A model generated the notes under the pieces. That model worked only from the letters and a program-made list of their open reading frames with translations. It was not told the origin of the DNA and made no database searches. The position numbers were made by a program, and so were the translations under genes. Shown here piece after piece: positions 45,907 to 64,000 of a stretch of 64,000 nucleotides of DNA. This DNA comes from Sulfolobus islandicus Y.N.15.51 (GTDB lineage Archaea; Thermoproteota; Thermoprotei_A; Sulfolobales; Sulfolobaceae), in the NCBI RefSeq assembly GCF_000022485.1, contig NC_012623.1:744001-808000 (forward strand), given 5' to 3'. The first letter of the stretch is position 1; each line of letters begins with the position of its first letter.

Positions 45907-46206
45907 TTAGGAATAATAGTTGTAATAATGATAGTAATGAATGCCGTGAATTGATGCTAAGAGCATGAATATCCCAGCCAGCGTTGCTAGTCCGTTAGCG
46001 AAGGGATCGTTATATCTGAAGTGAGCTAATGCATATCTCCTCCACTTCCCTCCTTTTTTCACGTATACCCCTGCCTCAGTGAACATATCTAAGAACATGT
46101 GGGAAGGACTAACCAAGACTGAAGTCATAGCCAACCACCACAAGTAGTACCCTAAAAAGTAACCCAACAGCAGAAAAGGTATTGAAGGTAGTAATCCCCA
46201 TACCAC
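45907..46206 (-). pseudogene. DUF1286-like membrane protein, N-terminus cut by MITE-like insertion
   Basis: 99 residues with hydrophobic segments and the motif SPSHMFLDMFTEAGVYVKKGGKWRRYALAHFRYNDPFANG. This is the His-Asp region of membrane-bound metal-dependent hydrolase relatives (DUF1286/YdjM type) common in Sulfolobus plasmids. The frame begins one base inside the border of the inverted-repeat element at 46207. The family's usual N-terminal His-containing segment is missing, and no continuation is found past the element. Confidence 0.6.
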
Positions 46207-46554
46207 TCGGTAGACCCAAAATCATATTACAAATATAAATTCAACATTAAACCTCATATTTTTTCTTAATAAATAAAAGAATATATTTTATTATACTCAT
46301 AATCAAGAGCATTAAGAATAATGTATTAAATAATCAATGTAAATAAAACAGATTCTATCATATACATCTTTATCATTTTCTAATATTATAATAATATTCC
46401 TCAGTTAATTGTGTGGAAATATAAAAAATCTAATATGGTACTTGGAAATTTATAAAAATTATCATATAATTATCTAACTAATTACATTAAATCGTTACGA
46501 ACTACTAATAATGAATAAAAATTATTTTTACTAATTAGATTTTGGGTCTACCGA
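46207..46554. mobile_element. MITE-like element with 23-bp terminal inverted repeats
   Basis: The left end TCGGTAGACCCAAAATCATA and the complement of the right end TCGGTAGACCCAAAATCTAA match over the first 17 bases and continue similarly (ATTA). The 348-bp interior is very AT-rich and holds no open frame of note. No target duplication is clear. It separates a truncated DUF1286-like gene from a 3' gene fragment, so it inserted into or deleted coding DNA. Confidence 0.65.
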
Positions 46555-46652
46555 CCAGGAAGGACCACATTCTTGGCATAACTGTAAAAAACAACTACCT
46601 TATCGTGGCATATGATAACGGAGACACCTCTAAGATCCAGATCCTCTCCTGA
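46554..46652 (+). pseudogene. 3' fragment of an unknown gene after the MITE-like element
   Basis: Frame from 46554 reads TRKDHILGITVKNNYLIVAY followed by DNGDTSKIQILS and a stop at 46650-46652. The amino-acid pattern looks like a real beta-rich C-terminus. No start is available because the element border lies at its first codon. The last 23 bases overlap the 3' end of the minus-strand gene at 46630. Confidence 0.4.
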
Positions 46653-47127
46653 AACCCTCCACGTGTTCCGGGAGTATGTAGTAGGTCGCCTTCCTCTTGT
46701 CTGGGTCCTTAACTTTCACTACTTTCTTTTCCCTGAACAGCTTGGATAGCGCAAAGCTGAACACAGCTACGGCGTCCTCTTTACTCTCCTCGTAAAACTT
46801 CGCCAACCTCTCATCGTAACCAAAAACTAACTCCTGCAACTTGTTCCTCCTTATGGGCTTAACGTAGTTCTTCACGTATTCATCGATTATCTTCGGTACC
46901 ACTCGTTTTATGTGGATATGTATTGGTTCGTTTTCATCCTCTACCGTAAGGTACAACACGTTCTCATCCTTCTTAATACGCTTCGACTTTTCTCTACTTT
47001 TCTTCATGTCACTGGATTTGCTTTCATTATTTCTGTTGTTTATTGATCCGTATGGATTAGTGCTAGTGTTTATCGGGCTGTCTTGATTTATATCATTACT
47101 ATTTGGAGTATATTGATCTGAAGACAT
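46630..47127 (-). CDS. Plasmid-type basic protein with disordered N-terminus, function unknown
   Basis: 165 residues. The first 55 are Asn/Ser/Pro-rich and probably disordered (TPNSNDINQDSPINTSTNPY), then a Lys/Arg run (KKSREKSKRIKKDE). A folded alpha/beta part from about 58 has VEDENEPIHIHIKRVVPKIIDEYV and a KKVVKVKDPDKRKATYYILPEHV end. Its composition suggests nucleic-acid binding. It reads away from the repeat-rich region at 47150-48060, so it could be a replication or partition protein; that is a guess. Confidence 0.5.
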   Translation of the reverse strand: MSSDQYTPNSNDINQDSPINTSTNPYGSINNRNNESKSSDMKKSREKSKRIKKDENVLYLTVEDENEPIHIHIKRVVPKIIDEYVKNYVKPIRRNKLQELVFGYDERLAKFYEESKEDAVAVFSFALSKLFREKKVVKVKDPDKRKATYYILPEHVEGFRRGSGS

Positions 47128-47159
47128 ACCTCTTCAAATATATCAGTATTTAAAAACCC

Positions 47160-47330
47160 CCATCCATACATATGCGTTCTATCAGACAAGAAACAGTAGG
47201 TATGTTATAATATCGATACGATTTCATACGATACAGATTTATTATAAGCATAATATTAGCGAAAGATAGGCGTAAAATAAGCGTTAAATAAGTGAAGCCT
47301 AAGCGTTGATGCGTACGGATTTCATCTCTA
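47160..47330. repeat. Short direct repeats, possible origin or regulatory region
   Basis: AT-rich DNA with ATACGAT twice (47216-47240), TAAGCG-type repeats (AAATAAGCGTTAAATAAG, then CCTAAGCGTTGATGCG) and TATAAGCATAATATTAGCG. It lies upstream of the 165-residue gene. The spacing of GCGTTA/GCGTTGA elements recalls iterons, but they are few. Confidence 0.3.
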
Positions 47331-47399
47331 TACCCCCTTCTCTAATTTTTTTCAAACTTCTTAAACAAATTTCTATACCCCAAATTTCGGGCCCCTGCC

Positions 47400-47790
47400 C
47401 GCCCCTTTTCTAGCTTTCTTTTACTGCTTTAACTATCAAACTCTTTTTTACTACTCTCTTCTTCTCTTTCTTTGCTTCTTTCTAACTTTTGCAGCTTTGC
47501 TATTCTCTCTGCTTTTCTAACTAACACTTCTTTTCTACTTTTGATGCTTTGCTTTCTGCTTTTACTCTTAATCTGCAGCTTTGCTCACTTTACTAATTCT
47601 CTCTGCTTCTGCTTTGCTTATAACAAACACTTCTACTACTCTTTTTTGCTCTGCAAATCTTACTATTCTCTCTTCTTCTCTTTTTGCTAAATCTACACTG
47701 CTTATTACTTACTCTCTTTCTGCTTCTACTATTCTTCTAAAGCAGCTTTTCATTCTCTTTTTTGCTTCTTACTAAGCAGCTCTCTTCTTT
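47400..47790 (-). repeat. Purine/pyrimidine-skewed degenerate tandem repeats; decayed coiled-coil coding?
   Basis: The plus strand is almost only C and T with recurring TTTGCTT, CTGCTTTT and TTCTTCTC. Read on the minus strand, short frames recur with the same theme: VLVRKAERIAKLQKLERSKE and, about 130 bases away, VFVISKAEAERISKVSKAAD. Both follow an AGTAGAAAAGAAGTGTT-like sequence and are broken by stops and shifts. I read it as imperfect tandem repeats of a Lys/Glu-rich coiled-coil gene in decay. An alternative is a plasmid origin with strand asymmetry. Confidence 0.5.
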
Positions 47791-48095
47791 TAGCCCAAGG
47801 TACTAATACTAAATATTCTAACTAACTCTTCTAACCATTTTACATAGTCTAGCTATTATAACCTGCCTTCTAACCTAGGATCCTATAGCCTTACTATTCT
47901 TTCTCTACATCATAAATAATAGTACATAAACACTACAAAAATACAACTGCGCTAATCCTTATTACTCCTCTCTTTAGTCTCTACTCTTCTCTTTTTTAAG
48001 AATTTACATAGAACATTTTTCATTAGAGTTCTACTTTTGACTATAAAATTAGTATAAGGGGTGCTTACGGGGAAAAGGCGGATATAAGCAAGGCT
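47791..48095. other. Non-coding stretch upstream of the split gene
   Basis: AT-rich and still pyrimidine-biased on the plus strand. No gene seen. It holds the promoter region of the split gene; a possible TATA-like TATAAAAT lies near 48042. Confidence 0.4.
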
Positions 48096-48304
48096 TTGAA
48101 AGTATTGATAAGGTCACTTACTGAAGACCAGCTCAAGGTAATTAAAGGGTTGAAGGTAGAGGGTAAGGAAGTTGAGGTAAGCAGTGAAGTTATTGAGGAG
48201 ATGAAGAAGAAAGGGATAAATGAGGAGGATATTCCGAAAATAGTTAGGGTAGCTATCGATAGTGACCTTCTTCTGGAAAGGCCTCCAGAGTTGTTAGAGC
48301 TTCT
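48096..48304 (+). pseudogene. 5' part of a 178-codon gene split by an IS256-family element
   Basis: 70 codons from TTG 48096 (MKVLIRSLTEDQLKVIKGLK, then SEVIEEMKKKGINEEDIPKIVRVA), helical and charged. The frame is cut within ...ELL by the element that starts at 48305. It then runs eight codons into the terminal repeat to a stop at 48327-48329. Removing the element and one GAGCTTCT copy joins it in frame to 50945-51272. No known family. Confidence 0.65.
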
Positions 48305-48349
48305 GGGGCTACTGGGTATAGTTGTGTAAGAAAATATGTAAGCAGAAGG

Positions 48350-49347
48350 TTAAAAGTCTTCATCAAGACTCACCTGGAACCTTGAAGCGTGGAGTTGTTT
48401 GAGATGATATGAGTAATGCCTTATCACCGACATGGGCCTGAACTTCCAACGCGAATTACTTTCATGGATCGAAACGTAGAGATAGACCTCCAAGGAGCGA
48501 AGAGAGGGAAAGTAACCTCCGAGCTCCTCCTCGAACCTAGCCAGGGTCGAGTTGAAACTCTCCGACGTGTTATTAGTGTAGAGGTAGTGTCTAATCTCCC
48601 TGGGGAAGTTGAGAAAGGAACAATACTTGTCAGCAGCGTCAAGAAGCCTCTTGGCTCGGGCTGGAGAAAAGGGTTGGACAAGTTGGCTGAGGGACAATAT
48701 AGCCTTCCTTCCCTCCTCCACGTTCCTGGAGGACTTTAGATCCCTAACTCTAATCATTAGTTCCTCCTTCTCCTTGTCTGGGAGGACCCTCATGAGGTTC
48801 CTAACCATGTGTGTTATACAGAGCTGGTGTTGAGAGGAGGGAAAGAGCGTGGACACGACGCGATCGAGTCCAGAGAAGTCATCGCTCACGATTACGTCAA
48901 CCCTGCTGACTCCCCTGCTTACGAGTCCGCTCAAGAAGGACTTCCAACCGTCCAAGTCCTCCCTATCCCTAACTTCGTAGTCCAAGACGAACTTATTCCC
49001 TTCTAAGTCAACTCCTATGGCAATGTAAATGGCTCTCTCCATGATCGACTCGCTGATTCTGACCTTTACGATCTTCACATCGATGTAAAGGGCTAGGAGA
49101 TCGTGAGGTAGTTCGCGGCTCTTGTATTCCTTGAGTTTGTTGGATATTCTCTCGGCAACCCGATTCATTACGATCTCACTATACGGTATTCCCTTGGCTG
49201 CTAACACGGCCTTGACTTGACTTGGAGTCATGCCTGATAGAACGAGCTGCTGGAGGAAGTCCTCGTAATCTGGGCTGGTCCTCTCGTACTTCTCCGGAAG
49301 GATCTTAGGTCTGAAGCCACCCTTTCTGGTTCTCGGTACTCTGAGTC
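48350..49347 (-). pseudogene. IS256-family transposase, C-terminal part
   Basis: It begins at the inner element with LRVPRTRKGGFRPKILPEKYERTS. It then has the mutator-type DDE domain: LALYIDVKIVKVR (first Asp), VDVIVSDDFSGLDRVVSTLFP with QHQLCITHMVRNL (second Asp and its context), and NTSESFNSTLARFEEE (Glu). It differs from the copy at 62898 by an extra Lys-Glu in PDKEKEELMIRV. Without the N-terminal part it is inactive unless the inner element excises precisely. Confidence 0.92.
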
Positions 49348-49351
49348 TTAA

Positions 49352-50647
49352 GAGAGTGTCCAGAATGCAAATAATTCAATAAATATAATGTGATAGAAAA
49401 ACAATATTATAACTAGTTGAGAATAGAAGTCAATTATATCTTTCAATATGAGGGAAGATTAATATTTTATTGTAATATAAAATAACTTATAGTTGAGAAA
49501 AAATGAATTTCAAACATACCCCATATTATTCTAGTTAACCCTAGCCTAGGGTTAACTAGAGAGTTTGACAAATTCCTCTTGCGGAACTTTTGCTAACACG
49601 GAAGTGTAAATCAAGGAATTGTAAATTATTCCAATAACGTAAACAAAAACCTCAACCATATCCTTGTTAATAGCGTAAGGTCTCCAATACCTCTTCAAGA
49701 AAATACCAAAGAATTCAACATAACGTCTAAAACTAGAAAAACCAATTATCCAAGTTGAGGGCATTCCCAAGAAACCCCTATCAACAACCTTATAACCACT
49801 CATACCAAAACCAACCTTATTATCGGGAAAGTTTGCAAACTCAACTTGAATTGCGTGAAGAATCATGGTTGGGGAAATAGCATATAAAACCTTGAAGCCG
49901 AAGAAACTCCTACCCCTCTTCTTCGCAAACTCACCCTTAAATCTACGATGAATCTTAGCCCTCATATAGTAGTAAATTAAGTTTGCTGCTTCCCTAAACT
50001 TTCCTTGTCTCAAGTTGAGTTCTAGCTTTTTCTTTAATGTCTCCTTGTTTCTCTTTCCGAAGGGTACTTCGATTATGTTGGAATCTATTGCCCAGAGTTT
50101 GTTAACTTTGCCGTATAAGGCACTACTTGGCAAGTAGTTTTCTAGTTTGCTTAGCTTTTCCTCAAGTTCTTTTGCGTATTCCTTGAATGCTTTCTTTATT
50201 TCTCCCCTAAGTTTCTTTGCCCTTCTGTGGTTTTCGGATTTTGACTTGCGTTCTCCTAGAAACCATCTTACTACAATGTCCGTGTAATAGTATGCTTCTA
50301 CATCTCTGTAGGAGCATTGCCATATCATCATGACGATGAGTACTCTAAGTATGTATAGGTCTAGTGATGATAGTGCTTTTGAGGTGATTAGTATGTAGTG
50401 CATTTTCAAAAGAGTTTTATGCCTTGATGATAGTTTATCATAGGGGACCGGGAGATTGTAGTATTCTATCCAAGGTTTCATATCTCCCAATCCTTGTACT
50501 ACGTCTTCCCGGTCCCCTTTAAGTATTACTCAAGATTTTACTCCAAGTGAAAATTCAAAATTTCTCAAGAGTTTATGCTTTCTTTTGAGTTATTATCTAT
50601 AAACTTATACATAGATTTATTGAATTATTTACACTTGGGATGCTCTC
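49352..50647 (-). mobile_element. IS5-family element, 1296 bp, complete
   Basis: Inverted repeats start GAGAGTGTCCAGAATGCAAA on the left and GAGAGCATCCCAAGTGTAAA on the complement of the right end, followed on both by TAATTCAATAAAT. Flanking TTAA occurs at 49348-49351 and 50648-50651, a 4-bp target duplication, single in the uninterrupted IS256-family copy. Length is near the ISC1234/ISC1290 group. The intact transposase and duplicated target suggest recent movement. Confidence 0.92.
49552..50490 (-). CDS. IS5-family transposase
   Basis: 312 residues. An N-terminal helical domain is followed by the DDE region: LWAIDSNIIEVPFGKRN (first Asp), YKVVDRGFLGMPSTW (second Asp) and a final RRYVEFFGIFLKRYWRPYAINKDMVEV segment with the Glu. 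FAKKRGRSFFGFKVLYAISP is basic and probably contacts DNA. Full length and uninterrupted, so it could be active. The homologous remnants at 1493-2051 and 62201-62849 are damaged. Confidence 0.9.
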   Translation of the reverse strand: MGDMKPWIEYYNLPVPYDKLSSRHKTLLKMHYILITSKALSSLDLYILRVLIVMMIWQCSYRDVEAYYYTDIVVRWFLGERKSKSENHRRAKKLRGEIKKAFKEYAKELEEKLSKLENYLPSSALYGKVNKLWAIDSNIIEVPFGKRNKETLKKKLELNLRQGKFREAANLIYYYMRAKIHRRFKGEFAKKRGRSFFGFKVLYAISPTMILHAIQVEFANFPDNKVGFGMSGYKVVDRGFLGMPSTWIIGFSSFRRYVEFFGIFLKRYWRPYAINKDMVEVFVYVIGIIYNSLIYTSVLAKVPQEEFVKLSS

Positions 50648-50651
50648 TTAA

Positions 50652-50894
50652 TACTCCGTCTCCGGTTCCCAGATATCTGAAGTAGGTCCCGTTCTTGTGG
50701 TCGTCCTCAACTTCTAGGTAGGCTTCCCTCTCTTCCATCATGGCCTCTTGCAAGATTATCTCCTCTATTTCCCTTAGGCTAACTCCTTCTTTGATTGCCT
50801 TTCTTATCTTTTCTCTTATTTCTTCCATTACCTTCATGGTATTACTCTCCCTTATGGTATTACCCCTTCCGGGGTTATTTTTACTTTTTGTCAT
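50652..50894 (-). pseudogene. IS256-family transposase, N-terminal part
   Basis: 81 codons: MTKSKNNPGRGNTIRESNTM, then KVMEEIREKIRKAIKEGVSLREIEEIILQEAMMEEREAYL and NGTYFRYLGTGDGVLR. It stops matching at the TTAA where the IS5-family element begins and reads a few foreign codons (EHPKCK). It joins 48350-49347 to make one transposase of about 413 residues. Confidence 0.9.
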
Positions 50895-50944
50895 TATTTT
50901 TCACCTTTTGCTACCACAACTATAACTGGTAGCCCCGAGCTTCT

Positions 50945-51272
50945 AAAGAAGAAGATGACCAGGGAGGAAGTTATTGATTTTTATAAGAAATACGGATATA
51001 CGGAGAAGGCAGTAAATAAGATGGTTGATAAGGCTATAGAGAAGGGTGATGTTGAAGAGGTTATTGAGTTTGTAAAGGATAAAGACGTTGGAGGAAAGGC
51101 TGGTGAAATACTTAGGGTAATTAAGGATCACGGAAAAATAGGTAGGAAGGAATTAAGAGAGATGATAGGAGAAGAAGGTTTAAGCGGTTTATTAAATTAC
51201 CTAAAGAAAGAGGGAACAATTAAGATTTATCTTAACAAGGGGTTCAAAGGGGGCGGAAGACTCCATCCGTAA
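50945..51272 (+). pseudogene. 3' part of the gene split by the IS256-family element
   Basis: 109 codons continuing the frame of 48096-48304: LKKKMTREEVIDFYKKYGYT, then VNKMVDKAIEKGDVEEVIEFV, and a winged-helix-like GEILRVIKDHGKIGRKELREMIGEEGLSGLLNYLKKEGTIKIYL with a Gly-rich end. An ATG at 50955 could give a 105-residue protein, so this half may still be made. The stop codon lies in the loop of a hairpin (see 51250-51350). Confidence 0.6.
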
Positions 51273-51350
51273 GGGTGGAGATGGATAGGCTCCACATGCT
51301 TTGCCTCTAACATGGCTAGGCGATAGCTTGAAGAGCCGAAGGAGTCCACA
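51250..51350 (+). ncRNA. Structured RNA candidate overlapping a stop codon
   Basis: CTCCATCC-GTAA-GGGTGGAG (51261-51280) is an 8-bp stem closed by a GNRA tetraloop that contains the stop TAA. GACTCC (51260-51265) can alternatively pair with GGAGTC (51341-51346), enclosing further stems such as GCT-AGGCGAT-AGC. The stretch is more GC-rich than its surroundings. It could be a terminator, an RNA gene or the end of a mobile element. I do not recognise the family. Confidence 0.4.
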
Positions 51351-51542
51351 AGAGGAAGAAACAGTGACGTTAGGTTAAAATGATAAAAAAAGTAAGTAGC
51401 AATTTCTTATTAATAATGAATAGTAGCATTAACTGGAAAAACGTATGCATCAAGACTAGGTAACCACAAGTATTATTGCATATGTAGAGAAAGTAGATCA
51501 CTCTAATTTATGCACTATATCCTTAACTTATGATTAATATAC

Positions 51543-51794
51543 CTACTGACTTTCGAATATTGTATGTACAAACTCGTTTAATGTGCTTCTATATTTTTCA
51601 TAAATTTTAGGAAATATTCTATACACCTTAATATTTTCATTATAAGTAATTTTATTCTCTCTAATCAATTTATCTATTTCACTTTTGTTTAATATATAAT
51701 ATTCTGATGTCATAGGATTAGTAATTCGCAAAATTATAAAATAATCAAAACCATCTAGTTCATGTAAGATTGCAGTTTTATTATCTAATACCAT
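51543..51794 (-). CDS. Small protein, function unknown
   Basis: 83 residues: MVLDNKTAILHELDGFDYFI, then TSEYYILNKSEIDKLIRENKITYNENIKVYRIFPKIYEKY. Mixed alpha/beta with no signature. The composition looks coding, with an AT-rich promoter-like upstream region. Isolated between the split gene and the 2H/metallophosphoesterase gene. Confidence 0.4.
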   Translation of the reverse strand: MVLDNKTAILHELDGFDYFIILRITNPMTSEYYILNKSEIDKLIRENKITYNENIKVYRIFPKIYEKYRSTLNEFVHTIFESQ

Positions 51795-52188
51795 TCCTTG
51801 AATAACTACTTTTACTTATTACCAGCTTTTGTATTATTATAATATAAGCTATAATACATAGAATAATATAATTTAAAAATAATAAAGTTCTACTCCTTAG
51901 AGCTATAATCTTTTTCTTATCCTACGTAAAATAGAGCCTGCGATGAAAGACGACTAGTGAAATAGAATGGCCAATAGTGCTAACTTAAAGTACGCTGACT
52001 GCAACAGTAATATTTACCATTTTTCCCATAAATGGACTAATACTTCAAGTAAGTTTTTGTCTCATTATTTCCATTTATACTGTCAAAATGAATAAGAACT
52101 TTATGAGACTATTAATATACACTATTTCTAAAAGCTACTAAGTTATAATTCATTTTAGTTTGTGCAACCCATGATGACTTTCTTTCCC
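51795..52188. other. 394-base intergenic region, nothing firm
   Basis: Mostly AT-rich. A GC-richer part near 51930-52005 has GCGATGA (51940-51946) and CTGA (51995-51998) spaced like C/D boxes, but no convincing inner boxes. No gene seen. Confidence 0.4.
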
Positions 52189-53349
52189 TTAAATAATTTT
52201 AGGTGGTAAATATAAATAGTCACTCTTAGTTTCTATTAGATTTAGTATCCATTTCAGGTTTACAGGGTAAAATTTTGTTACGTCAACGCCAACATTAATT
52301 GTCTTTATTTTAGAGTTAATGAATGGGTACTTTCTCAGTCTGTTATTATGCACATGACCATGGATTAGCCACGCATTATAAGAATTCAAATTAGTTGGAT
52401 AGTGTGAGAGTATGAATTTATAATTGTTTAGTTGTAGTTCTAATTGCTTTACTCCTATCGCTGGAGGATCATGATTACCTTGTATAAAGATCTTTTTCCC
52501 ATTTAGGAAATTAACGTAATTTTTAAAATCTCTTCTAGCAAAATCCCCTACTATATAAACTATATCGTCATTAGATATCATCTCATTCCACTTATTTTTT
52601 ATGTGTTCGTTCATTGTAGTAACGTCTACGAAAGGCCTTGCAGAATATTTAATTATATTTTTATGTCCAAAGTGTGTGTCAGCTATGAACCATATTTTAT
52701 CTAAACTTTTAGGATTTACTTCTATTTTTAGGTACTTTTCCCTATATTTCTCATATGTTTTCTCTAGTTCAACTAATGATAAGGCCTCTGCTCTATTGAG
52801 AATTTTCTTATTTAATATATCGTACTCATAGACTATTTTACCCGTATTTACGAGTGTTATCCTTAATACCTTAGCTTCATACAAAAAACGAGATAAAATT
52901 TGGAGCATTTCTTTATTGTTTGAAATATTTTTTACTACTTTACATGATAAATGAAAAGAAATGCCAGCATGAAACCAGAAGTTCTCGTTATAGAATTTAG
53001 CGTCAGACCTTTCTTTTATATAATTTTTTAGGCTCTTATAAAGGTCTTCCCTAAATTGAAGAAGTTCATTATTAGGCCTTATACCTAAGGCTATCGTATA
53101 TCCTTCTTTCCCATTTTTTATCTCGTATTTATCGTAATAAAATTCTAAATTGCCATATCTATTAGATACTTCTTTAATAACTTCCATTATTTTAAGCGGA
53201 GCTACTAATGGTCGGAAATTATATACGAGAGTAATATGAGGTACTCTATGTACTTTCAAATAACTTATAGATCTAATCTTTCGCATTATTTGTTTTAATT
53301 TATATTTCTCTAGAATTGGTCTTATTTCTATGATATAGCTATTTCTCAT
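52189..53349 (-). CDS. 2H phosphoesterase (LigT-like) fused to calcineurin-like metallophosphoesterase
   Basis: 386 residues in two domains. The N-part (1-180) resembles the 2H/LigT family, which opens or makes 2'-5' and 2',3'-cyclic phosphates. His38-Ile-Thr40 in HRVPHITLVYN is the first HxT; His127 in WFHAGISFHL is in the place of the second but with altered spacing. The C-part (about 215-370) has the metallophosphoesterase set IADTHFGHKNI, VGDFARRD, QGNHDPP, SHYP and IHGHVHNN, all metal ligands present. The substrate is unknown; the neighbours (McrBC-like, HEPN/MNT, Doc) suggest nucleotide-signal or RNA-end turnover in defence. Confidence 0.75.
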   Translation of the reverse strand: MRNSYIIEIRPILEKYKLKQIMRKIRSISYLKVHRVPHITLVYNFRPLVAPLKIMEVIKEVSNRYGNLEFYYDKYEIKNGKEGYTIALGIRPNNELLQFREDLYKSLKNYIKERSDAKFYNENFWFHAGISFHLSCKVVKNISNNKEMLQILSRFLYEAKVLRITLVNTGKIVYEYDILNKKILNRAEALSLVELEKTYEKYREKYLKIEVNPKSLDKIWFIADTHFGHKNIIKYSARPFVDVTTMNEHIKNKWNEMISNDDIVYIVGDFARRDFKNYVNFLNGKKIFIQGNHDPPAIGVKQLELQLNNYKFILSHYPTNLNSYNAWLIHGHVHNNRLRKYPFINSKIKTINVGVDVTKFYPVNLKWILNLIETKSDYLYLPPKII

Positions 53350-53378
53350 TATATTTTTATATTTCTCCTATTATTATA

Positions 53379-54552
53379 GTCTTTTTCATAATAGCTGCAA
53401 CGGGGGCTAAAAGGGAGTTAAATCTAGTGTTAGTAATGGGAGCTGTTGGGCTGAGTGTGCTAAGGACCTTAAAAAGGGAGATAAGGAAGCTAATTAGCAA
53501 GAAGCCCAAGAACCTAAACGAGACAAAAGCTAGGGCAATACTACTACACTCGGAACGAATGAAAATTAGCGAAATAGCAAAAATACTACAAGTTCACAAG
53601 AGCACAGTATATAGATGGATCAACGAATTCGAAAAGGAGGGAGAAAAATGCCTATTCCACAAGCAAAGAGAAGGAAGAAAAAAGAAGGTAAACGAGAGGG
53701 AAATAAAGGTAGAAGAAATACAAGGAAAAACCATATGGAAAGCAAAAACATAGAGGAGAAGTTCAACGTAAAAATAAGTTACAGCTTGGAGAATAGCGAG
53801 AAAAAGACTGAAAATTCCCTACATAAAACCCTACAAGATCGACAAGCCAATAGATGCCGACTTAGGGAGAGGTTGAAGGGCGTTATTAAGAAGGGCGTAA
53901 AAGTGTTTTTCATGGACGAGTCTGGTATTCGTCATGATCCCTCTAGGGTTAGGAGGTTGGGTTTGTATGTTGTTAGGGTTGATTATCCAAGTGTTAAGGT
54001 TAATATTCTAGCTTGTATTCCCTTGTTTGATGGTAAGCCTTGTTTTATGCTCACAATGTTGATTCTAGGGTTTTCGCTAATTTTCTTTACTTGCTTAGGG
54101 TTAGGAATTCTGGTAATGTCGTGTTGATTCTTGATAATGCTAAGTTTCACAAGTCTTCTTATGTTTTCGCTACTGCTTCTAGGCTTAACATTACTTTGCT
54201 TTTCTTGCCTCCCTATTCTCCGGATTTAAACCCAATTGAGTTGGTTTGGAAGGATTTGAAGCGTTGGGTTAATACTTATTATTACTCGTGTTATGCTCTA
54301 GAATTGAGGATGAGTTCTATTATTTGGTTTCTAAGGGTAATTATACTAGGTATTGGATTAATAAGTTTCGTGACGTGCTTGGGGATCTTGAGGAAGGTAT
54401 AAGTATGGGAAAATTTTTCTCATATTTGATTTATTATCTGTTAACAAGTTTTATCAAGTTTTATCTCACAATAATACAAGCTTTTCTCAATGTTTTTCTA
54501 TATTTTGTATTGAGAGAAGTTAAAAGCCTGTTGCAACTATTATGAAAAAGAC
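53379..54552 (+). mobile_element. IS630-family element with decayed transposase
   Basis: The ends GTCTTTTTCATAATAGCTGC and, complementing the right end, GTCTTTTTCATAATAGTTGC match in 19 of the first 20 bases. Flanking TA dinucleotides at 53377-53378 and 54553-54554 are the target duplication expected for IS630/Tc1-mariner. 1174 bp. The transposase inside has at least two frameshifts. Confidence 0.85.
53427..54402 (+). pseudogene. IS630-family transposase, frameshifted
   Basis: Three frames cover one protein. The N-terminal HTH (ISEIAKILQVHKSTVYRWINEFEKEG) lies at 53427-53700. A second frame (53880-54060) has FFMDESGIRHDPSRVRRLG with the first catalytic Asp. A third frame (54040-54300) has VVLILDNAKFHKS, the second Asp, and LPPYSPDLNPIELVWKDLKRW, with the final Glu of the DDE triad. 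All motifs remain but no single frame spans them. Confidence 0.88.
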
Positions 54553-54570
54553 TATATAACTCTTACTGTA

Positions 54571-54747
54571 GGGCTCATTTGGCTAGGTTGGCTAGGGACA
54601 CTAGGGCTGTCAATAGGAGTCAGAGAATGGTTGATTATAGTCTTGCCTTACTTAATGTCATGTATCCAGTAATTTATTCAAGGGAGAAGACTCCCTTGAA
54701 CGAGGCTTACTTGAGAGGAGTGCAGAATATTAGAGAAAATCTGATAT
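54571..54747 (+). pseudogene. Transposase C-terminal fragment, IS1-like
   Basis: 59 codons (RAHLARLARDTRAVNRSQRM, then VDYSLALLNVMYPVIYSREK) ending in TAA. The R-L-x-R-x-T ... S-x-x-M-V-x-x-S-L pattern resembles the end of Sulfolobus IS1-family transposases. It lies 18 bases beyond the IS630 element. No other part of that element is seen. Confidence 0.45.
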
Positions 54748-54754
54748 AATTTTA

Positions 54755-55366
54755 CTATTCAATATCGAATAAGATGACTGCATGAGAACACTCCCCTACC
54801 TCTACTCCTTTGTGTAAAGCCTCAAAGAACTTTTCTGAGAATTTCTTATCAGTTCTCTCATTAGGATAAAAACATTTAGCATCGTCTCTCATTACCAATA
54901 CTAATAACTTAGCGTTGTATCCTTTTTCCTTAAGTTTTATTAATTCTTCTAGATGTCTTCTCCCCCTTTCAGTTGGAGCGTCTGGAAACATTGCCACACC
55001 GTTTTCCACAAGACTGCATCCCTTAACTTCAATGAAAGTGTTTCCGTCTTGAAAGTCAATTCTACTGTTCCCTACTTTAACCTCAGCTTTGGCGTTAGGT
55101 AGGAATTTCCTTGTAATATCATTATGAATACTTGAATCAACAATTACCCACAAACCGTTCCATGCTGCAGTAACTTGATAAGAAGTTTTCCTCTTATTAC
55201 CGTCTACTTCTCTAACTAAAATCTTGTTCCCTGGATAAATTAACTCCTTCAATCTGCCTGGATCATGATGATGGCAAAGTTTTCCTGATTGAGTTGAAAC
55301 CATAAATCTGTTTAATCTTTCTTTAACTGTCTCTTCCTCTAATTTGGGAAATTGATAGACTATCAT
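54755..55366 (-). CDS. sfsA: SfsA-family nuclease-like protein
   Basis: 203 residues. An N-terminal OB-like domain ([28 protein letters not shown]) is followed by a PD-(D/E)xK-like C-domain: [20 protein letters not shown] supplies Asp, Glu and Lys, and [16 protein letters not shown] is the SfsA signature. Called sugar fermentation stimulation protein in E. coli; structurally a DNA-binding nuclease relative. Usually a chromosomal gene, so it may mark native DNA between acquired pieces. Confidence 0.9.
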
Positions 55367-55613
55367 AGTAGTGTGATGTTTTTATTTTAAAATAAGTCTT
55401 TATATTATCCTTTTGATTTTATATTTTTAATGAGTAAAGGATTTTTATGAAATTATTATACTTCCTTACACTCTAGAAGCCAAGGAAACGACTTACTATG
55501 ATTGATGCAGATTATTAACCAATTATGGAACCATGCACTTTAAGGTCTAAGAAAGTATGACAACTATAAATAGCTCACTCTTTATCTGAGGAATAGTATA
55601 CTAACAGTAGAAA

Positions 55614-57179
55614 TTATTGCCCTTTACTATTCCTAGATCTAAGATTTTCTATTATTTCTCTTTGATATTCCCTGAATTTTCGTAGAATTTTATCGTCAGT
55701 GGTTCCAAGAGACTTTTCCAAGACTAATAAGAATTTTTCACTAATAGTATCTGGTGTATCGTTGGGTTCTATTAACTCCTTAAGAAGACTTAATGCTAAC
55801 TTTATACTAGCAGTCGAAATATTATATTCATACTGCGATTTTTTCTGCTTATCTGAACAGCCGAACTTCTCTCTTAGGTATTTAACTTCACTGATAATTA
55901 CCTCCTTAAATGGAATAGTAGAATCGTTCAAGAACATTTTTACATCTTCAGTACCACACGTATAATCTAAATGAAAAATTAGAAATCTTCTCGTTAGAGC
56001 CTCACCAATTGGAAATAAATTATTAGAGTCAATTAAATTCATAGTTCCCACGAACCTTATTTTCTTCAGGACTTCGTCTTTTTTATCTCCTAGTCTTTTT
56101 AGATTGGCAAGAAATTCCTTGGCTTCATTATCAATTTCGCTAAACTTCTCTATTTCTTTCTCTATCTCCTCTAAGATCTTTTTCCCTACAGAACTACTAC
56201 CTACGTCGGACATTAAAGTTAGGATTTCACCAAAGGCCTTATCCACGTCTGCTCTATTTATCTCATCTATTATAACGTAATAATTCCCATTATTAATCTT
56301 CACAGCGCTATTATATGCTCTTATAAGTAAACCGCTATTCCATATAATACTTCCTTTCTCCATACTTTCACCACCAATTAAGTCCCTTCTGAACCAAAGA
56401 GAGTTTGCTGTAGTGACTTCGTAACAATTGGTATTTTCTCCAGTTAGTTTATCTATAACACTTACTGCCAAACTGGTTTTGCCAGTACCTGGAGGGCCTA
56501 CTAAGAGAACATTATAGATCTTAAGACTAGCTCCTAGCATTTTAAAGAATTCTTCAACGTTGGGAACTTCAACGTAAAATCTATTTGTCAAACTCATTAC
56601 ATCGGAAATATTTCCTTTACCACAATCAATTTCGATGTTGGAAACCTCAACCCTATTACTATCATCTCTTTGTAGAGATCCAGTAAATAAGGAGTCCCAT
56701 TTCTCTAAGAATTCGTCTTTATCTCTTCCATCTTCATACATGAGATAACCTAGTACTTTTTTACCATTTATCAAGCTATCCTTCTTTTCAATCCAATAGG
56801 AAGTTATTCTGCCATTACGTTCTACTATATTATTTTTTACAAATTCTAACGGTAAAACATAAGCTTTAGGAGAATCCGTATCAGCGTACGTTACTGCTAT
56901 TAAAAAGTCACATAAAACATAGTTAGGAATAGCGCCTATTGGATTTCTGCCCTTGACACCAGAAACACGAATATAGACTTTACTTCCATTCGGCTTCTGT
57001 AATACTAAATGAGGTTTACAACTTAATAATTTCTGATCATCTTTAGGTGGTTTAAAATCTTCGGGTATTTGTGATATTTTATACCCTGAATATTTTGAAT
57101 TTATCAGTTCATTAATTTTACTTAAAGTATATTTCATGGCTCTTTCATGAACTTCTTTCTTTGGATCACTATTTTTCAT
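55614..57179 (-). CDS. McrB-like AAA+ NTPase
   Basis: 521 residues. The AAA domain spans about 205-460: Walker A GPPGTGKT at 228-235, Walker B YVIIDEINRADVDKAFGE with Asp305-Glu306, sensor GTMNLIDSN at 378-386 and arginines in ALTRRFLIF. The GTMN-x-x-D sequence is the McrB GTPase-type marker. The N-terminal 170 residues (HLVLQKPNGSKVYIRVSGVKG, then CDFLIAVTYAD) are a separate beta-rich domain, perhaps for recognising modified DNA. It pairs with the divergent McrC-like gene, 139 bases away, as a type IV restriction-like system. Confidence 0.82.
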   Translation of the reverse strand: MKNSDPKKEVHERAMKYTLSKINELINSKYSGYKISQIPEDFKPPKDDQKLLSCKPHLVLQKPNGSKVYIRVSGVKGRNPIGAIPNYVLCDFLIAVTYADTDSPKAYVLPLEFVKNNIVERNGRITSYWIEKKDSLINGKKVLGYLMYEDGRDKDEFLEKWDSLFTGSLQRDDSNRVEVSNIEIDCGKGNISDVMSLTNRFYVEVPNVEEFFKMLGASLKIYNVLLVGPPGTGKTSLAVSVIDKLTGENTNCYEVTTANSLWFRRDLIGGESMEKGSIIWNSGLLIRAYNSAVKINNGNYYVIIDEINRADVDKAFGEILTLMSDVGSSSVGKKILEEIEKEIEKFSEIDNEAKEFLANLKRLGDKKDEVLKKIRFVGTMNLIDSNNLFPIGEALTRRFLIFHLDYTCGTEDVKMFLNDSTIPFKEVIISEVKYLREKFGCSDKQKKSQYEYNISTASIKLALSLLKELIEPNDTPDTISEKFLLVLEKSLGTTDDKILRKFREYQREIIENLRSRNSKGQ

Positions 57180-57318
57180 GTATATTACTAAAGAATCTTA
57201 AATTTATATATTCTCTTCATTCTCATCTGGTCGACATTATAATTTAAATTTTCTAAGATATTTGTTATGTTGATATTCTTAGCATAGTTTATTACCATTG
57301 TAATCCCAAATAAAGTAA

Positions 57319-58584
57319 ATGAAAGACTATAGACTAACTGTTAGAGACTTACAATTAATTAAAAAGGTAGGAAAATATTACTTACAATATATACGTGTTA
57401 TAGATATGGATACTCTTTTAAAGAAAATGAAAAGGAATTCAGAGTATGAGAACACAATAGCATTACGAAATGCACTAAACGGAATTTATTATTACGTTCT
57501 TTACATACTTACAATAGACGTAGTTAAGTCTGCGAAAGAGGCTTATAAAGATAAACTCGTGAGAAAAGAATTTAGCAATGAATTTGCGTCAGAAATCCAT
57601 GGAGCATTAGATATCCCTAGATCTTTAATGACTTATCCTTCAAAGATATATTCATATTATACGTATCAAAGAGGAGCAGACTCTTCAACATTCGCAGTTT
57701 TAGGGGCACTCCTAAGGGAAATATACAGAAATATATTTAAATTAAAAAACGAATTAGAGAAATATTATGAAGAATCTCACGTTATTAATTACTTTCAATT
57801 AAATGATTTTAATGATTACGTTAATTTGCTATATGAATATAAGGATAGATTCAGAAAAGGTAAGATTAGAGCGCCTATAGAAAAAGATCCATCATGGTTA
57901 AAGCGTGCTTTTAAGATATATATTACATTGGAAAAAATGATAGGAAATGAAATATCTTTAGGAAACGAAAACTCTATACTCCCTAAAGATAAGGATATAA
58001 TAAAAATGTTATTATGGAAACTTTATGAACTTTACGTATTTTACTTATTAATTAAGTATTTCGAGAAAAAAGGGTACAAAGTTAAGGTATCTAAAAAAGA
58101 TAAGTTTGACGTAGTTATGGAAAAAGATGGAAAAAAGAAATTTATAACACTGAATTCATCACTTGATTTTTCCTCACTATTTAGCATAGATAACTCTCAA
58201 AAAATAGAGGATTTTATGGGAAGACCAGATATCGCTTTAATTAACGAAAAGAAAATTATATTCGAATGTAAATATTCAACGTCGGCTTCTTACATTTCAC
58301 AAGGAAGGTTCAAGGTTATGGCCTATATGTATGAATACGATCCTAATATAGCTATTCTTATTTATCCTGGAATTGAGAGGATAAATAAATTGAATTCTGA
58401 TAATATATTGAGTGAGAAAATAGATGAGAGTATAAGAAACAAAGAGAAAGATAAAAAGTATGTAAAGCTCATATTTAAGTCTAGAAATAATAAACCTAGA
58501 CAAATGTATATAGTAACTATTGATCCATTAACGGAAGAAAATAAACAGGTCATGGAAAGCATAATGAATGAAATATTCGTTTAA
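57319..58584 (+). CDS. McrC-like nuclease subunit
   Basis: 421 residues. The middle segment FASEIHGALDIPRSLMTYPSKIYSYYTYQRGADSSTFA is typical of McrC/DUF2357 linkers. LWKLYELYVFYLLIKYFEKKGY opens the nuclease domain, and GRPDIALINEKKIIFECKYS gives Asp304, Glu316 and Lys318 of a PD-(D/E)xK site. With the divergent McrB-like NTPase it should cleave foreign or modified DNA. The divergent rather than operonic layout is unusual for McrBC. Confidence 0.8.
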   Translation: MKDYRLTVRDLQLIKKVGKYYLQYIRVIDMDTLLKKMKRNSEYENTIALRNALNGIYYYVLYILTIDVVKSAKEAYKDKLVRKEFSNEFASEIHGALDIPRSLMTYPSKIYSYYTYQRGADSSTFAVLGALLREIYRNIFKLKNELEKYYEESHVINYFQLNDFNDYVNLLYEYKDRFRKGKIRAPIEKDPSWLKRAFKIYITLEKMIGNEISLGNENSILPKDKDIIKMLLWKLYELYVFYLLIKYFEKKGYKVKVSKKDKFDVVMEKDGKKKFITLNSSLDFSSLFSIDNSQKIEDFMGRPDIALINEKKIIFECKYSTSASYISQGRFKVMAYMYEYDPNIAILIYPGIERINKLNSDNILSEKIDESIRNKEKDKKYVKLIFKSRNNKPRQMYIVTIDPLTEENKQVMESIMNEIFV

Positions 58585-58605
58585 TATTTTTAACTATAAG
58601 CTAAT

Positions 58606-59032
58606 ATGGAATTATCGCTTAATGGCCTCTATACTAATGTCGAGAAAGGCTGGTATGATTTTACAGTTTTTGTTAGTACTCTCAGAAAGTTCTTAGCCAA
58701 AGAGTACAAATGAGAGATAATAATTACAAAGACTTAATGGAACTATCAGTACTGAACAATCTTTACAGTTAGCATTAAAGGCGACGCTCCTTGAGAATAA
58801 GGGTAATTATCCTTTTACTCATGAAATTGATGAACTAATAAGTTCTTTAAAAAATATGAAACCTGAACTGGTTGAATTAGAAAATAAGAATAAAGAATTG
58901 ATAGCATTGTTAAAACTATCCTATACAGGGTCAAGATACTTTCCTAGTTCTTACGATAAAGATACTGCTAATAAGTTAATTAGTTTGGTAAAACAATTTT
59001 TAGAGGTAATAGACTTATGGCAGAAAGAATAG
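58606..59032 (+). pseudogene. HEPN-domain gene broken by a 73-bp insertion
   Basis: The first 25 codons (MELSLNGLYTNVEKGWYDFT then VFVST) and the segment from 58754 (EQSLQLALKATLLENKGNYP, then ending at 59030) make one HEPN protein, YDFTVFVST-EQSLQLALKATLL, if bases 58681-58753 are removed. The insertion is flanked by AGTACT repeats and shifts the frame. HEPN toxins are RNases controlled by an MNT nucleotidyltransferase; the MNT gene follows, overlapping by 16 bases. Toxin probably inactive. Confidence 0.75.
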
Positions 59033-59343
59033 AGTATTTTAATAATTGGAGAAAATACGCTTATGAGATCTGTGCTTCGCTAAAGAAGGTCTTACAAGAT
59101 GTAATGGTAGTAGTCTTCGGTAGCGTAGTTAGCGGGAATTATGTGCCTTCTTTAAGTGATATAGATATTCTAATTGTAAGTGATAAGGTTGGCGATATTT
59201 TATGGCAGGCTAAGATAAACCTTTACATATTATCTGAACTTAAGAGTGATATAACTCCTTTTGAATTTCATTATTCAAATTGGAAGGATTATGAGGAATT
59301 CTATAAGGAATTTTTCAATCCTAGGGTTGAAATTAGATGCTAA
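59017..59343 (+). CDS. MNT-type nucleotidyltransferase (HEPN antitoxin)
   Basis: 108 residues. VVVFGSVVSGNYVPSLSDIDILIVS is the minimal nucleotidyltransferase motif GS-x10-DxD. The C-terminus FEFHYSNWKDYEEFYKEFFNP is common in HEPN-linked MNT proteins. In such pairs MNT neutralises HEPN, in known cases by adenylylating it. Intact here although its HEPN partner is broken. Start ATG 59017 overlaps HEPN. Confidence 0.85.
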   Translation: MAERIEYFNNWRKYAYEICASLKKVLQDVMVVVFGSVVSGNYVPSLSDIDILIVSDKVGDILWQAKINLYILSELKSDITPFEFHYSNWKDYEEFYKEFFNPRVEIRC

Positions 59344-59469
59344 TTTGTGAAATTCTTCAGTTTTTCTCAATAGAAACGTATAGCTAACTTTTAACTCAAC
59401 AGAAGATTTAGAATCTATTTTACTTCTAGCTTAAGGCCTAAAAAATTCAATCAACAAGACAGATGTTAA

Positions 59470-59946
59470 TTAAAAAATTACATATGTTCTTGTTTCTTTC
59501 TCATAGTCTATATGATCTCGTGGACCTACTCCTTCAATTCTTATATTATAGCCTCCAAATTTAGACGTTGAACGCTTTGTGTTAATCGATATCCGTGCTG
59601 CCCGTGCAAATACATATACCGAATATGTAATATAAGGATTCAAATACTCAATTAGCTCATAAGCAGAAATTATCTCCTCTTTATCGTTTTTAGCCTCTAT
59701 TACTAAAAACTGTTTACCTAATGCTTCAATAGATACTAACCTTATTATAGTGAAGACATGGTGCATTTTAGCACTCAAATCTAGAAAGTATTTATATGCT
59801 GGTATTTCCGTAAATTCGTTATTTATGAATTTATTGCGAACTTCTACTACTTTGTCCAAGAAATCATCTTTGTCTGAATTAAGAGTACTAACATATGTGC
59901 AATTCGGTGCTAATTTTTCACATGGACACAATGCAATTATAGGCAC
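59470..59946 (-). CDS. Protein of unknown function in the defence-like island
   Basis: 158 residues, alpha/beta. A Cys-containing start (MPIIALCPCEKLAPNCTYVS) is followed by a helical middle and a C-terminal basic stretch (RAARISINTKRSTSKFGGYNIRIEGVG). No motif recognised. A TATA-like TATATAT lies about 25 bases upstream. It stands alone. Confidence 0.45.
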   Translation of the reverse strand: MPIIALCPCEKLAPNCTYVSTLNSDKDDFLDKVVEVRNKFINNEFTEIPAYKYFLDLSAKMHHVFTIIRLVSIEALGKQFLVIEAKNDKEEIISAYELIEYLNPYITYSVYVFARAARISINTKRSTSKFGGYNIRIEGVGPRDHIDYEKETRTYVIF

Positions 59947-60324
59947 TCTATACTATGGATAAAAACTGCATATATATTTGTTTCCTAAAAATTTATGCTT
60001 AAAATGCTAATATTTTTATGACTATTATCCCAAATCATTTATAGAATTAATTTATATTTTTCATGACTTTAAAGAGCTAGGGAATTTCCTTCAAGAAGTC
60101 CACTGTTAATCATCTAATAAGGTAATCCAATCTCTTTACAATCAAATTCTAAAACCTCTTAGCGTTTTTAGATCATTAAAATTAACGTAAAAATGGAGTA
60201 TTATCTAATCCGCCAACTGCTTGAGTGCTATATCATTAATATAAAAACATCATTTTCTTAGCTACGTTGTGGATCGCTTCAGAATTATACAAAAATTTTT
60301 AAGTAATTATGCAGAGTATTACCC
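59947..60324. other. 378-base intergenic region
   Basis: AT-rich sequence with scattered short frames and no recognisable gene or repeat. Promoter-like ATATATTTG near 59970 probably serves the minus-strand gene. Confidence 0.4.
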
Positions 60325-61503: not shown

Positions 61504-61872
61504 ATGTATTTTAACAAGATACTTTGGCACTGTAGAGATAAGAAATTGGACTTCATAAAGGGCGATGTGAGTATCGCAATATATTCTGCTATAGAAGATC
61601 TCATGCGTAATAACAATATTAGCAGGAGTCTAGCAGTATTAACGTACCACTTAATAACTTCTCATCCTTTCGTTGACGGCAATAAGAGAACTGCTTTAGG
61701 GTTGTTATTACATATTTTACATGAGTTATTTAATGATAAAATATCAATATTGCCAGATTTACTAGATTTACTTATAAAGACATTGACTGATGTTGCTGAC
61801 AACCCGCCAGAAGAAGACGAGCATGCAATAAACAAGATAAGAGGAATTATACAACGGATTATTGGAGATTGA
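61504..61872 (+). CDS. doc: Fic/Doc-family toxin
   Basis: 122 residues. HPFVDGNKRTALGLLLHIL is the Fic motif HxFx(D/E)GNxR, complete with catalytic His and the phosphate-binding GNKR. The size fits Doc, which phosphorylates EF-Tu in bacteria, rather than larger AMPylating Fic proteins. Its last 14 bases overlap a small minus-strand gene (61859-61998), the likely partner. Confidence 0.85.
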   Translation: MYFNKILWHCRDKKLDFIKGDVSIAIYSAIEDLMRNNNISRSLAVLTYHLITSHPFVDGNKRTALGLLLHILHELFNDKISILPDLLDLLIKTLTDVADNPPEEDEHAINKIRGIIQRIIGD

Positions 61873-62852: not shown

Positions 62853-64000
62853 GGGGCTACTGGGTATAGTTGTGTGAGAAAATATGTAAGCAGAAGGTTA
62901 AAAGTCTTCATCAAGACTCACCTGGAACCTTGAAGCGTGGAGTTGTTTGAGATGATATGAGTAATGCCTTATCACCGACATGGGCCTGAACTTCCAACGC
63001 GAATTACTTTCATGGATCGAAACGTAGAGATAGACCTCCAAGGAGCGAAGAGAGGGAAAGTAACCTCCGAGCTCCTCCTCGAACCTAGCCAGGATCGAGT
63101 TGAAACTCTCCGACGTGTTATTAGTGTAGAGGTAGTGTCTAATCTCCCTGGGGAAGTTGAGAAAGGAACAATACTTGTCAGCAGCGTCAAGAAGCCTCTT
63201 GGCTCGGGCTGGAGAAAAGGGTTGGACAAGTTGGCTGAGGGACAATATAGCCTTCCTTCCCTCCTCCACCTTCCTGGAGGACTTTAGATCCCTAACTCTA
63301 ATCATTAGTTCCTCCTTGTCTGGGAGGACCCTCATGAGGTTCCTAACCATGTGTGTTATACAGAGCTGGTGTTGAGAGGAGGGAAAGAGCGTGGACACGA
63401 CGCGATCGAGTCCAGAGAAGTCATCGCTCACGATTACGTCAACCCTGCTGACTCCCCTGCTTACGAGTCCGCTCAAGAAGGACTTCCAACCGTCCAAGTC
63501 CTCCCTATCCCTAACTTCGTAGTCCAAGACGAACTTATTCCCTTCTAAGTCAACTCCTATGGCAATGTAAATGGCTCTCTCCATGATCGACTCGCTGATT
63601 CTGACCTTTACGATCTTCACATCGATGTAAAGGGCTAGGAGATCGTGAGGTAGTTCGCGGCTCTTGTATTCCTTGAGTTTGTTGGATATTCTCTCGGCAA
63701 CCCGATTCATTACGATCTCACTATACGGTATTCCCTTGGCTGCTAACACGGCCTTGACTTGACTTGGAGTCATGCCTGATAGAACGAGCTGCTGGAGGAA
63801 GTCCTCGTAATCTGGGCTGGTCCTCTCGTACTTCTCCGGAAGGATCTTGGGTCTGAAGCCACCCTTTCTGGTTCTCGGTACTCTGAGTCTTAATACTCCG
63901 TCTCCGGTTCCCAGATATCTGAAGTAGGTCCCGTTCTTGTGGTCGTCCTCAACTTGCAAGTAGGCTTCCCTCTCTTCCATCATGGCCTCTTGCAAGATTA
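62853..64000 (-). mobile_element. IS256-family element (ISC1332-like), second copy, runs off the window
   Basis: Begins with the same terminal repeat GGGGCTACTGGGTATAGTTG as at 48305 and is nearly identical to it along 1.1 kb. It crosses the place where the first copy carries the IS5-family insertion (63890-63900 here reads straight through GAGTCTTAATACTCC). It is inserted in the IS5-family transposase gene at 62853; the left target would be the 8 bases before it (CCCTAACT). Confidence 0.93.
62898..64000 (-). CDS. IS256-family transposase, uninterrupted, 5' end outside window
   Basis: About 366 visible residues: EAMMEEREAYLQVEDDHKNG, LRVPRTRKGGFRPKI, LALYIDVKIVKVR, VIVSDDFSGLDRV, CITHMVRNL, NTSESFNSILARFEEE. 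The mutator-type DDE set is complete. Compared with the copy at 48350 it lacks one Lys-Glu pair. It is probably the functional source copy. The last ~45 N-terminal codons lie outside. Confidence 0.93.
   Translation of the reverse strand, partial: ILQEAMMEEREAYLQVEDDHKNGTYFRYLGTGDGVLRLRVPRTRKGGFRPKILPEKYERTSPDYEDFLQQLVLSGMTPSQVKAVLAAKGIPYSEIVMNRVAERISNKLKEYKSRELPHDLLALYIDVKIVKVRISESIMERAIYIAIGVDLEGNKFVLDYEVRDREDLDGWKSFLSGLVSRGVSRVDVIVSDDFSGLDRVVSTLFPSSQHQLCITHMVRNLMRVLPDKEELMIRVRDLKSSRKVEEGRKAILSLSQLVQPFSPARAKRLLDAADKYCSFLNFPREIRHYLYTNNTSESFNSILARFEEELGGYFPSLRSLEVYLYVSIHESNSRWKFRPMSVIRHYSYHLKQLHASRFQVSLDEDF

Follow-up and report, generated by a model that had tools for sequence, protein, structure and literature searches.

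RNAs with 2',3'-cyclic phosphate ends are constantly made by cells and viruses, and the known routes for cleaning up such ends are those of PNKP, the HAD phosphatases and KptA. The closest described enzymes to the protein presented here are the LigT/ThpR RNA 2',3'-cyclic phosphodiesterases and the PF13563 (YjcG-like) 2H family for its N-terminal half, and the AQ1665/COG4186-like metallophosphoesterases (1xm7, phrog_547) for its C-terminal half; 1xm7 has one domain only and no known function. The same enzyme classes are genomically linked in the phage sirtuin/2H/Nudix/calcineurin RNA-repair gene clusters (PMC9503650), and for phage RNA repair clusters a division of labor has been proposed in which the 2H enzyme opens cyclic ends and phosphatases follow (PMC9503650, PMC7824862). 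No paper evidently on a fusion of a 2H and a metallophosphoesterase (MPP) domain was found in the open-licence literature, and an earlier description may exist.

The window, a stretch of 64,000 nucleotides from Sulfolobus islandicus Y.N.15.51 (NC_012623.1, positions 744,001 to 808,000), contains a gene for such a fusion (Table 1). The plus strand opposite 52189-53349 is crowded with stops, and homologues that align over the full length of the 386-residue protein exist. Pfam PF13563 (2_5_RNA_ligase2) matches residues 30-152 with 28.9 bits (cut-off 27), the phosphoesterase family phrog_547 matches residues 207-377 (E 3.6e-42), and the metallophosphoesterase AQ1665 (1xm7) matches residues 219-316. 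The protein does not match the ThpR/LigT equivalog TIGR02258 at its curated cut-off; among the scanned relatives the sole match to this model is L141, with 34.9 bits against a cut-off of 65.7.

Table 1. Positions of the fusion gene, its domains and motifs, and the adjoining upstream features within the window
Feature	Position	Strand	Remarks
2H-metallophosphoesterase fusion gene	52189..53349	-	386 aa; ATG start, stop included
2H phosphoesterase domain, residues 1-180	52810..53349	-	PF13563 match and fold match
Calcineurin-like MPP domain, residues 215-373	52231..52707	-	phrog_547, 1xm7, fold match
First 2H motif	53227..53241	-	P-H38-I-T-L, canonical
Second 2H motif	52957..52974	-	F-H127-A-G-I-S; Gly replaces Thr/Ser at H+2, Ser at H+4
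IS630-like element	53375..54556	.	30-bp terminal inverted repeats; insertion site ~26 bp ahead of the ATG
sfsA 3' end	54744..54793	.	50 bp

The AlphaFold2 model of the full chain, built from a 44-sequence alignment, has a mean pLDDT of 93.1 and a pTM of 0.90, and replaced an earlier model from 9 sequences (pLDDT 76.8). In both models residues 1-180 form a 2H fold and residues from about 216 to 372 a calcineurin-like phosphoesterase. Residues 1-180 of the 44-sequence model match the archaeal LigT-like protein 1vdx (Z 14.6, rmsd 3.2, 170 aligned); the same segment matches Usb1 6d2z (Z 14.5, rmsd 3.1, 171 aligned) and E. coli LigT 5ldm (Z 14.4, rmsd 2.9, 161 aligned). Residues 216-372 match 1xm7 (Z 17.1, rmsd 2.6, 33% identity over 150 aligned residues). 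The fusion claimed in the original prediction is real, as judged from the reading frame, PF13563, phrog_547 and the fold matches to both halves, and the structure model proposed there as a check has the 2H fold in the expected place. The likeness to the LigT/ThpR and PF13563 families lies in the fold over residues 1-180 and in both catalytic histidines; the window protein differs from them in its C-terminal MPP domain and, within the Sulfolobaceae branch, in a second motif without Thr/Ser. The likeness to the AQ1665-type enzymes lies in the fold and in all conserved ligand residues, and many phage matches of the fusion span the MPP half alone.

In the MPP domain D224, H226, D269, N292, H293, H316, H330 and H332 are all present, and the metal-ligand motifs D-x-H, GD, GNHD, H and GHxH are complete. 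In the 2H domain H38 and H127 are invariant among the 44 fused homologues. An HxT/S pattern is found in the first motif (HIT) and is missing from the second (HAG). At position H+2 of the second motif Thr occurs in 68 and Ser in 13 of the 93 homologous sequences scored. All seven sequences from Sulfolobaceae and Nanobsidianus have Ala or Gly at H+2 and Ser at H+4, the latter being found in only one of the 81 sequences with Thr/Ser at H+2. L186, a stand-alone 2H protein from outside this clade, also has Ala at H+2 but lacks the Ser at H+4, and G081, the outgroup to the clade in the tree, retains Thr (HATIA). In the sequences compared, the HAGIS-type second motif is a mark of the Sulfolobaceae/Nanobsidianus clade, and the 2H-MPP family as a whole keeps HxT/S. 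As modeled, the window protein is 2H-derived by fold and descent, rather than a proven 2H enzyme.

The fusion was found in Methanomicrobiales (most of the carriers found), Methanosarcinia, Chloroflexota and Nanobdellota, with full-length relatives in Methanoregula, Methanosarcina, Methanolinea, Dehalococcoidia and another Chloroflexi MAG. Counted by a profile built from nine sequences, with either domain sufficing, the family is carried by 130 of 232 Methanomicrobia, 16 of 238 Methanosarcinia, 17 of 294 Dehalococcoidia and 24 of 237 members of the Nanobsidianus phylum; carriers in the window's own class are the window genome and six others of 229, one of these a weak 2H-only match. The distribution within Sulfolobales is patchy; the G012 copy is interrupted by an insertion and the G081 copy is split across two frames. 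The fusion is widespread and divergent, and no one-off. An origin in phages was considered and rejected: phage and plasmid records all cover less than 80% of the protein, and the retained viral-contig matches are confined to residues 159-386, short of the body of the 2H half. No viral structure model gave a convincing match to the full chain.

The two domains are also coupled in other arrangements, and this coupling is the best pointer to function. Three loci (L141, L223, L224) have separate overlapping genes in the order 2H then MPP, two (L221, L222) have a NUDIX-MPP fusion followed by a 2H gene with no gap, and the 2H-MPP fusions of L004 and L007 each overlap, at their start, with a NUDIX gene. 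Across 161 loci scanned with a NUDIX profile, 10 Dehalococcoidia genomes and one from the Nanobsidianus phylum have a NUDIX gene or domain that lies upstream of the 2H or MPP part, no more than 150 bp away; in Methanoregula NUDIX adjoins an MPP gene. The best solved match of the NUDIX partner is 3f13, a putative Nudix hydrolase, and no close characterized relative of it was found. Six loci have LemA in front of the set; the Dehalococcoidia operon consists of LemA, NUDIX and 2H, with or without MPP (L237, L238, L221, L222, L004), and is headed in several loci by a small basic ORF. Given fusion as well as adjacency in both gene orders, the coupling would be hard to explain unless the 2H and MPP enzymes act in one pathway. 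Compared with the phage clusters of PMC9503650, 2H-MPP sits in cellular genomes, the domains are fused in several permutations and, unlike in those clusters, no sirtuin, RNA ligase or cREC partner was noticed nearby.

The best explanation, held with middling confidence, is a two-step cyclic-phosphate processing enzyme in which 2H acts before MPP, with substrate, step order and NUDIX role inferred. Acting on an RNA end or on a nucleotide, the N-terminal 2H domain would open a 2',3'-cyclic phosphate and so produce a phosphomonoester; the C-terminal phosphatase, which is metal-dependent, would then strip that phosphate, leaving the 2',3'-diol free. Chloroflexota and a few others may complete the set with the NUDIX hydrolase, which would trim either the same RNA at its 5' end or a nucleotide diphosphate. 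In the branch of Sulfolobaceae to which the window belongs, HxTxA has changed to Hx[A/G]xS; slower catalysis or a shift of substrate is predicted there for the 2H step, the phosphatase remaining intact. The original prediction that the fusion could degrade cyclic-phosphate substrates in two steps is supported as a possibility by the folds, active-site residues and coupling, which are observed here along with the distribution and the constraint on both domains. Several points count against this explanation. The loss of the second-motif Thr in the Sulfolobaceae branch is likely to matter, the equivalent CNPase mutant T311A being without measurable activity (PMC4643303). Searches in Sulfolobaceae for close relatives of the NUDIX partner returned distant NUDIX proteins only. 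Neither an RNA ligase nor a polynucleotide kinase was noticed among the inspected neighbors. Sulfolobales possess RtcB, for which 2',3'-cyclic ends are direct substrates, and their opening could therefore hinder repair. The putative 2',3'-cyclic phosphate substrate is in line with the 2H, phosphatase and Nudix roles proposed for the phage clusters (PMC7824862, PMC9503650).

For the Sulfolobaceae proteins it is conceivable, if rather unlikely, that the 2H domain is a non-catalytic RNA- or nucleotide-binding module and that the phosphatase acts alone. The altered second motif had been pointed out in the original prediction and is as written there; the change probably matters, as Thr is lost at H+2 throughout the clade and the equivalent CNPase mutant T311A has no measurable activity (PMC4643303), both of which would suit a binding module. 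Set against this are the retention of both 2H histidines and the Ser at H+4 in all clade sequences, which by alternation falls on the same strand face. When the window copy is compared with that of Nanobsidianus, dN/dS is also equally low in the two halves, 0.21 for 2H and 0.23 for MPP (Nei-Gojobori counts); with values near 0.2 in each half, the 2H domain is altered yet still constrained, and the MPP domain is constrained as well. The Sulfolobaceae motif change offers a natural test of how much alteration a 2H active site can tolerate.

Catabolism of ADP-ribose 1'',2''-cyclic phosphate (Appr>p), in which the 2H domain would open the ring, the MPP domain take off the 1''-phosphate and NUDIX split ADP-ribose, would match the three activities step by step and account for NUDIX as a recurrent partner, and the Arabidopsis Appr>p cyclic phosphodiesterase 1jh6 is among the fold matches (Z 13.3, rmsd 3.0, 163 aligned). 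The known producer of Appr>p is KptA/Tpt1 (PF01885). It is absent from the window genome, from Nanobsidianus and from every Sulfolobaceae and Dehalococcoidia carrier tested. None of the 232 Methanomicrobia has it either, although 130 of these carry the family; among the 35 carriers checked it is present in four Methanosarcinia and G081 only. Attractive as NUDIX makes it, this pathway was rejected on the absence of KptA as the general function, and is improbable. Since that absence disfavors an ADP-ribose cyclic phosphate as the general substrate, the simplest common substrate would be RNA or nucleotides bearing a 2',3'-cyclic phosphate. If the two-step explanation is true, the 2H-MPP(-NUDIX) unit would constitute another complete clean-up route, present in many methanogens without KptA.

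That the fusion breaks down a 2'-5' or cyclic oligonucleotide signal, as a type III CRISPR off-switch or an anti-defense activity, had also been put forward; this reading is very unlikely, and a CRISPR or defense role is unsupported and was rejected. The fold matches do include 2H relatives that cut such signals (rotavirus VP3, MHV ns2, penguinpox cGAMP PDE and Acb1), and a McrB-like ATPase and a Doc toxin are encoded in the region. However, the PADLOC HMM search for known anti-phage defense systems gave no match, and the fusion was not found in phage or plasmid records; what viral contigs match is essentially the MPP half. Nor is the family associated with Csm1-type Cas10 in Methanomicrobia: it occurs in 10 of the 23 genomes with Csm1 and in 130 of all 232 (Fisher p 0.27, Csm1 model only). 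Gene contexts are not conserved and vary by lineage. Housekeeping contexts throughout had been named as evidence against a defense role, and homologues do lie largely, though not completely, in such contexts, mostly beside varied genes such as formate dehydrogenase-like, EF-1alpha, MCM, carB and rhodanese. The rhodanese/beta-lactamase-fold protein that neighbors the gene in six Methanomicrobia loci probably reflects lineage synteny.

The description of the window neighborhood as defense-like holds only in part: McrB-like ATPase, Doc, nucleotidyltransferase and transposase genes lie nearby, but the IS630-like element, whose transposase reading frame is fragmented, separates the fusion gene from the first three, and no examined homologue shares these neighbors. 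A local link to defense may still exist and would be peculiar to the window genome. The McrB-like AAA ATPase gene (55614-57179, minus strand) has a weak NCBIfam McrB match only; a divergent 421-aa gene on the plus strand, within 55614-58584, belongs to no recognized family and is possibly its nuclease partner. The Doc-type death-on-curing toxin homologue lies at 61504-61872 (TIGR01550, E 1e-18), and a small nucleotidyltransferase at 59017-59343 (PF01909) is possibly half of a toxin-antitoxin pair. The surroundings of the fusion gene are rich in insertion elements, with two near-identical transposase-like genes at 48350-49231 and 62898-63995. Rfam gave no match within 46000-60000.

A housekeeping step on a small-molecule cyclic phosphate, such as dihydroneopterin 2',3'-cyclic phosphate in methanopterin synthesis, is the least probable reading: that pathway passes through a 2',3'-cyclic phosphate and includes several steps listed as unassigned (PMC3087415), and over half of Methanomicrobia carry the family, but the family is patchy in Methanosarcinia and Sulfolobales and occurs in Chloroflexota, and some methanogens already have MptB for the phosphodiesterase step (PMC3087415).

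A broader and more tentative version of the two-step explanation is that a KptA-independent NUDIX-2H-MPP module for fully cleaning up cyclic-phosphate RNA or nucleotide ends is widespread in archaea and Chloroflexi. In its Sulfolobaceae branch the second catalytic hydroxyl would have shifted from H+2 to H+4 (HxT to Hx[A/G]xS), and nanoarchaeal symbionts would have received the enzyme from that branch. The gene is present in two Nanobsidianus stetteri records, with 89-91% protein identity to the window copy, which indicates host-symbiont transfer; one copy (L001) is intact and the other (L002) is frameshifted at an A-run. In the tree the Nanobsidianus copies and the window copy are nested within the Sulfolobaceae clade with support 100/100, and Sulfolobales have been reported as hosts of such Nanoarchaeota (PMC6142677). 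Within this trio the window sequence groups with L002, and the direction of the last transfer step is therefore unproven. The Nanobsidianus gene sits between an MFS transporter and EF-1alpha, and the 50-bp sfsA 3' piece adjoins it directly upstream, in relative orientation opposite to that in the window. This common piece and the 91% identical MFS neighbor support transfer from a Sulfolobales host. The MFS transporter (L001:6323-7759) is 91% identical to a copy from the window's genus and 78% identical to the window genome's own, and is likely a second host-derived gene.
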